Assembly: GCF_040256645.1 (NCBI RefSeq)
Contig: NZ_CP158281.1
Coordinates: 434,001-498,000 of the forward strand
Direction of reading: 5' to 3'
Origin: Brevibacterium sp. CBA3109
GTDB taxonomy: Bacteria; Actinomycetota; Actinomycetes; Actinomycetales; Brevibacteriaceae
DNA length: 64,000 bases
Under the pieces are notes generated by a model. The model did no database searches. It worked only from the letters and a program-made list of their open reading frames with translations, and was not told the origin of the DNA. The translations under genes were made by a program, and so were the position numbers. This document shows, piece after piece, positions 5,689 to 59,960 of the stretch (the stretch's first letter is position 1; the number at the start of each line of letters is the position of its first letter).

Positions 5689-6316
5689 GCGCGAGCTGCG
5701 GGTTCTCATCGTCGAGGATGACCCCATGACGGCTGAGGCACACGCGGAATTCGTCCGGCGAGTGTCGGGATTCGCCGTCGCGGCGGTGGCACCGAGTGGG
5801 CACGATGCGCTCGAGCGCTACGACCTGCTGGTCGCCGCGGGAACTCCCGTTGACATCGTTTTGCTGGTAATAAATCTCACGGATTCCCACGGACTCGATG
5901 TGGCTAAACGCCTGAACGGGCGCGGGCATGGCACTGACATCATCGCGATCACCGCGGTGCGTCATCTCCAGGTCATTCGCTCGGCGATCGCGACGGGAAT
6001 GACGCAGTATCTGATCAAGCCGTTCACGTTCGCGGTGTTTCGGGAGAAGCTGGAGAATCAGCGGGCGTTTCGGCTCAACCTCACCGGCAATGGGTCGTCG
6101 GCGGCGCAGTCTTCGGTCGATGACGCGCTGAGTGCGCTGCGATAGGTGTCCTCGGAGCGCTTGCCCAAGGGTCTTATCGAAGAGACGTTGGCGGCGATCT
6201 CGACGCAGGTGCGCACCGCGTCTGCACCGGTGTCGGCGACGGAGGTCGCGACCGCGTTGAAGCAGCCGCGGCACGGGACGCCGGGACGGCCGGAGTATGA
6301 GTACCGGTGGGGGTGA
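5678..6316 (+). pseudogene. CitB/DctR-type response regulator, decayed (copy 1)
   Basis: The receiver domain (ELRVLIVEDDPMTAEAH to YLIKPFTFAVF) is intact in frame, but the phosphoacceptor position reads LLVINL, with Val64 where the second copy at 10198 has Asp (LLDMYL). A TAG at 6143-6145 stops translation after residue 155; beyond it the frame continues with ERLPKGLIEETLAAIS. Comparison with copy 2 also shows an in-frame loss of about 22 residues that removes the helix-turn-helix (TALALSRVTVRRHLEHL in copy 2). Three independent lesions make this a clear pseudogene. ATG 5678 is preceded by AGAGG and overlaps the end of the kinase remnant. Confidence 0.9.
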
Positions 6317-56225: not shown

Positions 56226-56347
56226 ATTCATCGCCCCAGCTGGACGCTGAATCGATTGCACCCGCTGGCGGCTGCGCGGACGGCTGGACAACGACCTGAA
56301 TGCACAGAGAACCGGCGAATACAGCGAACACAGAGAGTGGAGAACTC

Positions 56348-57154: not shown

Positions 57155-57349
57155 TCACGTGGTTTCGCAGGCGTCGACAAACCAGGATGTGATGGTCGCC
57201 GGGTGTGTGATCGCCGTTCCCACGACCACTGCCTCGGCGCCGGCCGACAGCGCAGCTGCCGCGTCCGTTGGCGTGTGGATCCGCCCTTCAGCGACGAGCA
57301 TCGGACCTAATTCCGCCGCCCGGATCTCACGCAGGAGCTCAAGGTCTAT
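57155..57349 (-). pseudogene. NanE (N-acylmannosamine-6-P 2-epimerase) C-terminal remnant
   Basis: The minus strand reads IDLELLREIRAAELGPMLVA and EGRIHTPTDAAAALSAGAEA followed by VVVGTAITHP, the last two beta/alpha units of the NanE TIM barrel, which carry a phosphate-binding GT site. About 65 of ~225 residues survive. NanE and NagB act in the same amino sugar pathway, so the fragment is locally sensible. Confidence 0.8.
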
Positions 57350-57446
57350 TCTGATGACAAGATATGTGCTCCAGGCTGAAGTTCCACCCATTGCTATTCA
57401 AAAGTACCTGCCTCAGAGGTTTGGGTTCTGAGCAGCGCGCTTGACG

Positions 57447-57581
57447 ATGTGGCCGGCAAGCGTGCTGCAGATGCATCAGCACGCCACTGTCCTCGTCGAC
57501 GACTCGGCCGCGTCACGGCTGCAGTTGGGCGACTACTACCGGCAGACGTACGCGAGCAAGCTCGACAAAGAGAGGCTCTAG
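57447..57581 (+). pseudogene. Second nagB, C-terminal remnant
   Basis: 44 codons (MWPASVLQMHQHATVLVDDS to YASKLDKERL, then TAG) are colinear with nagB 56998-57130 and identical at 37 of 44 positions. No start or catalytic region survives. It must come from a second nagB copy or a duplication. Confidence 0.85.
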
Positions 57582-57800: not shown

Positions 57801-57851
57801 CAGCCGATGGCTGGTGCCCTGCGTCGTTTGCAGGGCACCAGCCATCGGCTG
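57801..57851. terminator. Very strong hairpin downstream of the Cys-rich locus
   Basis: Twenty-two-base perfect arms (57801-57822, 57830-57851) with a 7-base loop. On the minus strand it sits 18 bases after the 64-residue gene and ends the halocin-like operon. Region 57582-57800 shows no gene. Confidence 0.85.
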
Positions 57852-57868: not shown

Positions 57869-58063
57869 CTATTTCCGCTGTTTCATCCGATCATCACGGA
57901 ATCGAATGACAGCGATGACGAGGGCGCCGATCAGAAACGCGAACGACAGTCCCCAGAAGACTGCTGCAACACTGTGTAACCCCGGAGCGAAGACAAGGGC
58001 CTGGGAAGCGATCGCAAGTAGCAACAGTGCGACGATCCATCTGGCTTTCGGTGGAATTCTCAT
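57869..58063 (-). CDS. 64-residue two-helix membrane protein, candidate immunity protein
   Basis: A small basic protein. Two hydrophobic helices (WIVALLLLAIASQALVFA at ~9-26 and VFWGLSFAFLIGALVIAVI at ~35-53) and a charged tail RFRDDRMKQRK. GGAGGAACC immediately precedes ATG 58063, so it is a real gene. It lies 68 bases downstream of the second Cys-rich precursor on the same strand. A self-protection role for the peptide is inferred from position and size only. Confidence 0.7.
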   Translation of the reverse strand: MRIPPKARWIVALLLLAIASQALVFAPGLHSVAAVFWGLSFAFLIGALVIAVIRFRDDRMKQRK

Positions 58064-58131
58064 GGTTCCTCCAGTTGCTATCTAAACGCAAGGTAAGTTG
58101 CTTGTAAGGGCAATCATACCTCCTGGCTGCT

Positions 58132-58809
58132 TCAGGTACTCAGGCATTTTCCGACACTGGCTCCACCAACAGCAGTGAAGCCAGCCACGCAGACAACGCA
58201 GCCGACGCCTACCGTTGCGGCGCAGGCGGTAGCACAGGTGCTGATGATGATCAGTGCCACAGCCGTTGTGATGCCCAGGGCGTTCAGGCAGTCGAGGACA
58301 TTTGGGTCGGCGCCTTGGAGGGAAGCTGCCTGGGCATCGGAAGCCTCTGCCGATGTGTTCACATGCTTCGTTCCCTGCGAATCACCATTCACCCAAGTGG
58401 TTACCTGAGCTTCGGCGTCAGATGACTGCGTCGCCTTCACCTGAACCTGGTTGGAGGTCTTGCCGGTCTCGGGATTGACCACGACTCCCGCGAACGAGCC
58501 CTTGTCATAATCTTCGCCAGATAGCTGGACCGCGACCATCAGCTTGTCGGTGCCCTCGGGCTGTGAGACTTGGGCGTTGTCGAGATCTGCAACTGCCCCG
58601 TGAGGGAGGTCGTTCAGGACAGGGGACGCCGCCTCGATCGCCTCTTCCGCCTCGGTGTCACTGGATTCGAGCATGACGGTGTCGGCTGCTGCCGGCGCGC
58701 TCTGTTCCTTTGGTGTTGCTATCGTTGCAGTCGGATTGAGCACAGCGACAGAGGCGACGAGGAAAGCCGCCATTGATGTCGTGAGGGTACGTTTCGTTTG
58801 CACGCTCAT
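58132..58809 (-). CDS. Secreted precursor with six-Cys C-terminal module (halocin C8-like)
   Basis: A 225-residue preproprotein. A signal peptide (SMAAFLVASVAVLNPTATIA) is followed by an acidic pro-region (~35-165) with VAVQLSGEDYDKGSFAGVVV and a hydrophobic C-terminus with Cys at 174, 192, 196, 204, 207 and 222 (LDC, STCATAC, GVGCVVC, GKC). The spacing is C-x17-C-x3-C-x7-C-x2-C-x14-C. GGAGAA precedes ATG 58809. The paralogue upstream shares the spacing exactly. I recall halocin C8-like domain proteins of similar composition, but the resemblance is unverified. Mature size would be about 55 residues. Confidence 0.75.
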   Translation of the reverse strand: MSVQTKRTLTTSMAAFLVASVAVLNPTATIATPKEQSAPAAADTVMLESSDTEAEEAIEAASPVLNDLPHGAVADLDNAQVSQPEGTDKLMVAVQLSGEDYDKGSFAGVVVNPETGKTSNQVQVKATQSSDAEAQVTTWVNGDSQGTKHVNTSAEASDAQAASLQGADPNVLDCLNALGITTAVALIIISTCATACAATVGVGCVVCVAGFTAVGGASVGKCLST

Positions 58810-58867
58810 GATCTTCTCCTAATTGTTCTGAACTCGGTTGGGATCAACTGTCGATGTTGTCAAGGAC

Positions 58868-59596
58868 TCACTTCTGGGCTTGGTCGATGCAATAGCCAGC
58901 AACTCCTCCAGTCACGCCTGCGGCGGCTGCAATGCATCCGACGCAACCGACGCCAGCAGTACCGACACAGACTGCACTGCAGGCGACGCTGATGCCGGCA
59001 ACCACCCATGAGGAGATTCCTTGTGAGGACAGGCAGTCGTTGAGCTTTCCCCAAAATCCGTCGGATTGAGTGGAAGCTCTGTTTGAAGCAGCATCTTCGG
59101 CGGTGACATCGCGGTCTGCTGTCTTAGTTCCGTTATTCCATGCCTCGACGTGACCTGAGTCTTCCGACGTGGCCTTCATGACGATCTCGGCTGTCGCGAG
59201 GACCTTACCTTCAGGCGAGACCACGGCACCGATGTTCGAGACTCCCTCGATATCGCTATTGAACGAGTAGTTGACGTAGATGTTTCCATCGTCGAGTTCC
59301 CACGCCTTTGCGCTCGACGCATCGATGTCCTCTCCAGACTTTGAGGCAGACTCAAGATCGACCTTGTCCGCCAATGAGTCGGCACGTTCGTAGCCGAGCT
59401 CTGCGCCCAGTTGCTTGCCCGGAGAAGATGATTCGTCAGCCTGAGCCGATCTTGCATTCAGGCCCCCGCTCAACACGGCGGCGCAGACAAGGGCGAGCAC
59501 AAGGGCAAACCACCTTGTTGCTCGCCGCCATGATTCAGTTTGCGTCGACTGGTCAGGTGAGTTGTTGTCAGTCGAGGGCGTCGCTGTCAGTTGCAT
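58868..59596 (-). CDS. Secreted precursor with six-Cys C-terminal module, paralogue
   Basis: A 242-residue preproprotein from ATG 59596 (GAAGGGA upstream; nine extra codons at 59623 are unlikely). N-terminal signal (WFALVLALVCAAVLSGGLNA), pro-region with NIYVNYSFNSDIEGVSNIGA similar to that of the neighbour, and a C-terminal module LNDCLSSQGISSWVVAGIS followed by Cys at 206, 210, 218, 221 and 236 (first Cys 188). Spacing is identical to the 58132 protein. Probably first gene of a three-gene operon. Confidence 0.75.
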   Translation of the reverse strand: MQLTATPSTDNNSPDQSTQTESWRRATRWFALVLALVCAAVLSGGLNARSAQADESSSPGKQLGAELGYERADSLADKVDLESASKSGEDIDASSAKAWELDDGNIYVNYSFNSDIEGVSNIGAVVSPEGKVLATAEIVMKATSEDSGHVEAWNNGTKTADRDVTAEDAASNRASTQSDGFWGKLNDCLSSQGISSWVVAGISVACSAVCVGTAGVGCVGCIAAAAGVTGGVAGYCIDQAQK

Positions 59597-59960
59597 CTCG
59601 TTTCCCTTCCTCTTCACTGCCATCCGGAAGCTGGAATCAGCCGCCTATGGCGAGGCTATGAACCAACTTGTGACGTAGGCAACAGATGTGAAGAAAGTGA
59701 TAGATGGGGCGTGACTGTTCGGCGGTCCTGGTGTCCCGCAAGTGGATGGCGATCATCGCCGATCAGTGTCGAACTCATCGTTACTGTTTTGTTATATTCA
59801 GAGAGCCTTGTGCCACTGTGGTTTCCTGATATTCAGGACAACGCACAGGAGGTTTTGGCTGACTCATGTTGCGAACCGGGCAGGTTCGGGGTTCCCGGGT
59901 TCCGCCCACCTGAGCAACCCCTCAAGAGCACCAGACCGGGCATGTGGGAAGATTGAAGGC
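59597..59960. other. 364-base divergent intergenic region
   Basis: Between the Cys-rich precursor and the glycosyltransferase. Contains an AT-rich stretch (TTTTGTTATATT, 59789-59800) that may hold promoters. No credible gene or long repeat was seen. Confidence 0.4.

Follow-up and report, generated by a model that had tools for sequence, protein, structure and literature searches.

Some features of described toxin systems are useful at the outset. In the SDP system of Bacillus subtilis (SdpC/SdpI), a Sec-exported pro-protein carries an internal hydrophobic peptide with a disulfide, and a membrane protein confers immunity. The toxin halocin C8 is cysteine-rich, and the mature closticin 574 peptide begins with PNWTKIGKC and contains two cysteines.

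Published accounts add the following. In the case of halocin C8, a single exported precursor (ProC8) gives rise to both the toxin and the immunity peptide, and export proceeds by the Tat route (PMC11509114). Closticin 574 of Clostridium tyrobutyricum is made as a precursor of 309 amino acids, with a probable signal peptide and a C-terminal bacteriocin of 82 amino acids that is processed after secretion; the mature part of a closticin-574-like protein from B. altitudinis (CLB) was inactive when made in vitro (PMC10888436). Sublancin 168 (SPbeta) is phage-borne and glycosylated, has cysteines that are oxidised by BdbA/BdbB, is exported by SunT with cleavage of its leader, and is countered by the immunity protein SunI (PMC8270828). 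The actifensins of Actinomyces are defensin-like peptides of 37 amino acids, preceded by a leader of 32 residues, in which six cysteines form three disulfides (PMC6989792).

The stretch of DNA considered here (‘the window’) comprises 64,000 nucleotides of a Brevibacterium genome (G000:C1:434001-498000, where G000 denotes the genome of the window), within a single contig of 3.67 Mb. On its minus strand, two precursor genes (B, then A) are followed by a small gene (C) and by a 22-bp hairpin (Table 1), with gaps of 58 bp between B and A and 68 bp between A and C. Shine-Dalgarno-like runs precede each start (GGAAGG for B, AGGAG for A and GGAGG for C), and a promoter scan listed no sigma-70-type promoter for the unit. 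The 22 pairs of the hairpin give -52.6 kcal/mol, against -22.9 +/- 2.9 in shuffled sequences (z -10.1); the element, which has no U-tract, is not among the listings of the terminator scan, and it likely marks the end of the A/B/C unit.

Table 1. Coordinates, within the window, of the operon, its subregions and the adjoining gene remnants.
Feature	Position	Strand	Description
Gene B	58868..59596	-	242-aa precursor with a six-cysteine module behind a predicted signal peptide and an acidic pro-domain
B residues 1-53	59438..59596	-	Predicted Sec signal peptide; putative cut after AQA
B residues 54-179	59060..59437	-	Acidic pro-domain; modelled as short helices and a six- or seven-stranded sheet
B residues 180-242 + stop	58868..59059	-	Hydrophobic six-cysteine module; putative start of mature peptide
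Gene A	58132..58809	-	225-aa precursor, architecture as in B
A residues 1-31	58717..58809	-	Predicted signal peptide; putative cut
A residues 32-165	58315..58716	-	Acidic pro-domain; modelled as a helix and a six- or seven-stranded sheet
A residues 166-225 + stop	58132..58314	-	Six-cysteine module
Gene C	57869..58063	-	Putative immunity protein of 64 aa (pI about 12) with two predicted membrane helices
22-bp hairpin 3' of gene C	57801..57851	-	z -10.1, no U-tract
Second nagB 3' end remnant	57441-57581	+	Edge of slot; 90% to nagB of G016
nanE remnant	57155-57391	-	Edge of slot

The C-terminal modules of A and B have an identical cysteine spacing, C-x17-C-x3-C-x7-C-x2-C-x14-C. Identity between the two proteins is 24% overall and 20/49 within the module. 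With region limits chosen by the analyst, the pro-regions (126 residues in B, 134 in A) have calculated pI values of 4.14 and 4.05, respectively, and the modules GRAVY values of 0.89 and 1.37. AlphaFold2 models built from 15-row alignments (pLDDT 70.4 and pTM 0.63 for A; pLDDT 65.6 and pTM 0.59 for B) contain pro-domains of one or two helices plus six or seven beta strands, in blocks mostly at pLDDT 75-89, and tails corresponding to the modules that form four helices at pLDDT 59-78. Fold searches of the PDB with these models returned no match at E <= 0.001, and a sequence-profile search of the PDB returned a single chain, at E 0.82. Both genes appear constrained (dN/dS 0.09-0.10, rough values given the high dS). 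The initial annotation of this DNA had described two secreted precursors sharing a cysteine frame, with acidic pro-regions and hydrophobic C-terminal modules, a 64-residue two-helix protein preceded by a ribosome site, and a terminal hairpin of 22 base pairs, and each of these elements was recovered, the two helices of C as two hydrophobic segments in its hydropathy profile. Its further statement that the residues between the cysteines differ strongly is fair, 14 of 43 being identical once cysteines are removed, but A and B are, as judged from their sequences, plainly homologous.

The chromosomal location of the operon is a variable slot, because a different gene occupies it in another genome of the same species (G016) and because gene remnants lie beside the window operon. 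In G016, nagB (82%) and a family 2 glycosyltransferase region flank that other gene and the operon is missing; from position 59942 on, the glycosyltransferase region of the window is 97% identical to that of G016. The occupant of the slot in G016 encodes a DUF2510-DUF4041-T5orf172/MUG113 protein (L106 4065-5804). Between positions 56300 and 57581 of the window, nagB is followed by a 3' remnant of nanE and then by a duplicate of its own 3' end, and these two remnants indicate a rearrangement of this region, which perhaps accompanied the filling of the slot.

Within the genus, the distribution is patchy. Sequences resembling B occur in four of 57 Brevibacterium genomes (one match, in G002, being weak and probably unrelated) and sequences resembling A in three of 57, and the operon is intact in two, namely the window genome and G045. 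In G020, C is intact but the A next to it is broken, close to the same glycosyltransferase gene; at a second locus, this genome has an N-terminally truncated B-like gene with a partner of its own. The window genome also holds a second, decayed locus on the minus strand (L082 4380-4834, about G000:C1 2804380-2804833), with an open C-type frame and a weak remnant of the module (E 0.0036).

Beyond the genus, profile searches extended the family; they scored a few candidates in each genome (seven where there were more), and the counts are therefore lower bounds. Profile A1 matched at least 13 of 396 genomes of the order at E <= 0.01 (including the window genome, with G023 and G335 marginal), with real matches in six genera besides Brevibacterium; profile A2 matched at least three of 396 genomes of the phylum at E <= 0.01 (including the window genome, with G628 marginal) and at least four of 394 genomes of the class at E <= 0.001 (again including the window genome), adding four genera for a total of ten further genera of Actinomycetota. 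Searches with tblastn identified plasmids of Streptomyces and Arthrobacter and of four Bacillaceae (Terribacillus, Pseudalkalibacillus, Bacillus pumilus and B. licheniformis), and the phages Goe11, Goe13 and Goe14 of the SPbeta group, with weak matches to two Rhizobium plasmids (H4 and H5); matches H11, H13 and H14 were counted as copies of H10 and H12. Some of the first tblastn values were weak (E 0.06 for pBP6000 of B. pumilus, E 9 for pFL5 of B. licheniformis), and these two precursors were initially accepted on their cysteine frame and later checked with profile A2, which had been built without the plasmid and phage precursors. With E values calculated for 10,000 proteins, that profile matched pBP6000 at 7.6e-35, Terribacillus at 1.6e-27, pFL5 at 1.5e-26, Goe14 at 5.8e-26, Pseudalkalibacillus at 1e-10 and locus L113 at 1.9e-6, as compared with E 4 for the best of 231 shuffled or reversed controls. 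By sequence similarity, these matches show that homologues of the precursors span two phyla, Actinomycetota and Bacillota.

A strict or loose version of the cysteine pattern matched 22 rows in 1,016,600 six-frame residues from the window and the longer loci (65 short match loci were left out), and all 22 rows, among which the G045 pair is counted twice, are family members, with no chance matches. The exact spacing 17-3-7-2-14 occurs in 13 distinct modules from Brevibacterium to Bacillus, with locus L111 as one more. A spacing of 18-3-11-2-17 is found in G316, G175, G659, Arthrobacter and L112, with 18-3-9-2-17 in Pseudalkalibacillus and 17-3-9-2-17 in L113; the phage and Terribacillus modules have a spacing of 17-3-11-2-14 plus one extra cysteine placed x3 outside each end, for a total of eight. 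Across genera of Actinomycetota, plasmids and SPbeta-like phages, modules have either the spacing of the window or one that differs from it in loop length. Homologues without the cysteines would, by the initial annotation's own standard, have refuted its hypothesis; all six are present in the intact relatives examined, save the metagenome proteins P0006 and P0007, which each lack one cysteine, and P0012, in which the module is cut short. Homologues from metagenomes come without genomic context.

From the models and the sequences, we infer that the cysteines pair as a nested ladder (C1-C6, C2-C5 and C3-C4), with the added pair of the eight-cysteine versions lying outside. Both models place C2 and C3 at the end of one helix and C4 and C5 at the start of the following one, the loop between C3 and C4 varies (x7, x9 or x11), and the additional cysteines fall exactly x3 outside C1 and C6, all of which point to such an arrangement. 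On plasmid pFL5, two thiol-redox genes lie directly upstream of the six-cysteine precursor (L092 1283-2130). One is thioredoxin-like, with sub-threshold matches to TIGR01068 (2.5e-11) and to the PedC/BrcD family (7.5e-9); the other encodes a disulfide oxidoreductase and matches NF002849 at 137.7 bits against a cut-off of 124.

The association of the module with a small membrane protein was surveyed at 25 loci containing a module or its remnant, all of which had been found through the precursor rather than the partner. These comprise five in Brevibacterium (the window, G045, two in G020 and the second locus of the window genome), ten in other genomes (G254, G343, G414, G260, G408, G218, G316, G175, G259 and G659), and those of Streptomyces BHT-5-2, Arthrobacter, Goe14 (gene pair UIS26582 and UIS26583), Terribacillus, pBP6000, pFL5, Pseudalkalibacillus, L111, L112 and L113. 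A protein with two hydrophobic segments lies beside the module, or is fused to the precursor, at 23 of the 25; all 23 pass one common hydropathy rule, and the three loci found last (L111, L112 and L113) each have such a partner. It lies downstream at 17 loci, upstream on the same strand at two (L083 and L111) and divergently in pBP6000, and in three genomes of one genus (G343, G414 and G260) it is fused in frame to the N-terminus, giving the order two segments, signal segment, precursor. The remaining loci are those of pFL5, where a four-TM protein takes its place, and of Pseudalkalibacillus, where the precursor is split and the partner is absent. An automatic rule restricted to downstream genes identified a partner for nine of 13 intact, unfused precursors and for four of 349 control ORFs (Fisher 1.8e-12); the controls include antisense ORFs, and two of the four control matches are themselves orphan homologues of C. 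The partners of Arthrobacter and Terribacillus are absent among the listed rows of the PLSDB tables, which are incomplete.

Whether these partners descend from a common ancestor was addressed with a profile of 20 Brevibacterium C proteins, with 267 two-segment pieces and 17 reversed sequences as controls. In a first pass, eight of 17 partner candidates scored above all controls and nine, including two of the three fusions, did not; five candidates were then added to the profile for a second pass. Two candidates gained in significance: the divergent gene of pBP6000 went from 1.6e-4 to 1.1e-7, and the N-terminal part of the G414 fusion from 2.9e-4 to 2.9e-6. The Goe14 partner, above the controls at first (0.004), fell to control level (0.54), where the fusions of G343 and G260 also lay. 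A claim of common descent is therefore limited to some of the partners: those of pBP6000 and G414 appear, on this profile evidence, to be related to C, and the others are too diverged to tell.

The pattern of decay at these loci is informative with respect to the role of C. At seven loci (L036, L054, L077, L080, L081, L082 and L113, the last near a contig end), the partner has an open frame beside a broken or truncated precursor, the split Pseudalkalibacillus precursor, without a partner, being the exception. At 17 further Brevibacterium loci, C is present and an intact module pattern is absent. The dN/dS of C is 0.13-0.20 (rough, given the high dS), including the copy beside the broken precursor of G020. 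Such persistence argues for C as an immunity protein, and would be unexpected of a lone helper in export or cleavage, which should not survive by itself. A cspA-type cold-shock gene is found at 11 of the 17 stand-alone C loci (L041, L043 and L045-L053); this recurrent place suggests that the orphan C is inherited vertically, and there it could have a housekeeping role.

The best reading of these data, to which we assign a probability of about 0.73, is that A, B and C encode a bacteriocin-type toxin with membrane immunity. A and B, predicted to be exported by the Sec pathway as inactive pro-proteins, would be cut by proteolysis immediately ahead of the module (near GFWGK in B and GADPN in A), freeing C-terminal six-cysteine peptides of about 60 residues; the pro-domain would cap the peptide and so prevent its activity. 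For cuts at these points, the predicted masses are 5996 Da for the reduced B peptide and 5586 Da for that of A, or near 5990 and 5580 Da with three disulfides. The freed peptide, braced by its disulfides, would act on the membrane of close relatives, and the two-helix C protein would protect the producer. Carriage by phages and plasmids, together with patchy presence, supports a bacteriocin. Weighing against the reading are the inactivity of the in vitro CLB peptide, whose precursor has an architecture of this sort, the nine partner candidates that did not exceed the controls and the later fall of Goe14, the exceptions pFL5 and Pseudalkalibacillus, the stand-alone C genes near cspA, the cysteine missing from P0006 and from P0007, the weak remnant of L082, the position of L113 near a contig end, and fold searches in which no match was convincing. 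Were C instead to assist in maturation or export, keeping the precursor in place while it is cleaved or its disulfides form, with the peptide being either a bacteriocin or a signal, its pairing with the module and the fusions would be equally expected; however, an open frame, with a dN/dS near 0.2, would hardly be expected of such a protein at loci where its substrate is broken (seven) or absent (17), and we regard this role as improbable. The modules might also be surface-active, adhesive or signalling peptides, beside which C is a recruited general small membrane protein. The company of cspA at 11 of the 17 orphan loci, as if C were vertically inherited, is in keeping with that idea, but carriage by small plasmids and SPbeta-like phages, the patchiness, the pattern of decay and the thiol oxidoreductases of pFL5 all fit a toxin better, which leaves a non-toxic function quite improbable.

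The initial annotation had proposed a two-peptide bacteriocin with an immunity gene. The immunity part is strengthened by the regular pairing and by the partner’s outliving the precursor; the two-peptide part finds no support as a general rule, as paired modules were seen in the window and G045 only. That A and B act only together, as a two-peptide bacteriocin with one common immunity protein, is doubtful: they are adjacent, kept together with a single C in both genomes, and similarly constrained, but the other scanned loci hold a single module within the flanks examined, so that one module seems to be enough, and each of the pair may be a toxin in its own right. On a broader scale, the toxin reading would make the locus part of a so far unrecognised toxin-immunity family across Actinomycetota, Bacillota and SPbeta-like phages, in which a ladder-braced helical peptide is released from a Sec-exported pro-protein, a two-helix immunity hairpin is encoded downstream, upstream, divergently or in fusion, and orphan immunity genes have been kept by Brevibacterium after loss of the toxin; taken as a whole, we consider this extended account slightly better than an even wager.

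The curated models that were scanned do not name such a family. In Pfam and NCBIfam, neither C nor any scanned precursor reached a cut-off, and among PHROGs at E below 0.001 the unnamed group 33667 was the sole match. The Goe14 protein is a member of this group, which is annotated as of unknown function, and the group's profile matches B of the window at 1.6e-9 over residues 86-233 and A at 0.15. No paper naming the six-cysteine family was found among the open-access papers searched. Judged by sequence, the family is a putative Sec-exported type of pro-bacteriocin with a C-terminal peptide, outside the curated families tested. This provides a functional hypothesis for precursors that the phage and plasmid records examined list as ‘hypothetical protein’, as well as for PHROG 33667 and for small membrane genes of a kind that readily escapes notice; the cysteine frame is a simple search pattern for additional members, and the fusions and orphan immunity genes offer a clean test of toxin-immunity co-evolution.

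The halocin C8-like domain had been put forward as the closest relative of the module, and that suggestion fails at the curated cut-offs. True membership of the locus in the halocin C8-like families (TIGR04449, TIGR04450 and NF040679) is unlikely. With TIGR04450, all scores lie below threshold: A reaches 12.5 bits, L073 11.6 and the precursor of Streptomyces, L083, 13.2 (the best obtained), the last in a co-linear alignment (77-221 to 88-235 of 240), and NF040679 gives 10.3 bits for B, but these scores are far under the respective cut-offs of 27 and 200 bits. TIGR04450 returned no row for B and matched 0 of 396 genomes of the phylum, and its sole control match, in Lactococcus lactis, was also below cut-off. 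TIGR04449 (cut-off 24 bits) returned no row for A, B or the relatives scanned, and a halocin C8 sequence, as a positive control, scored 61.5 bits. The joint production of toxin and immunity from one gene is nevertheless echoed by the fusions of G343, G414 and G260, of which that of G414 has sequence homology to C; in the window, C is a separate gene, and immunity would most likely reside in the two-helix protein.

The likeness to closticin 574 lies in a long exported precursor with a C-terminal peptide, an architecture that is predicted here from sequence and models. The start of closticin 574 quoted above resembles the FWSKLNDC start found in the family, and its two cysteines contrast with the six found here. 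When that mature peptide was used as a query, it matched two plasmids, of Priestia and Corynebacterium, that lack the six-cysteine frame, which speaks against a homologous mature peptide. The C. confusum plasmid (L110 611-1411) encodes a closticin-574-like precursor of 180 amino acids and, after it, a membrane-type ORF of 84 amino acids that is absent from the annotation, a layout parallel to the one described here. SDP differs from the present system in its sequence and in an immunity protein larger than C. The actifensins have six cysteines and an origin in Actinomycetota in common with it, and a defensin-like CS-alpha-beta fold was rejected for the module, which is modelled as all-helical, measures about 60 amino acids and lies behind a pro-domain of ~130 residues. 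With respect to class IIb two-peptide bacteriocins, A, B and C occur together in the window and G045, and single modules occur elsewhere. Sublancin 168 resembles the family in its carriage by a phage and in the oxidised cysteines and immunity protein proposed for the latter, and differs from it in its glycosylation and its SunT route.
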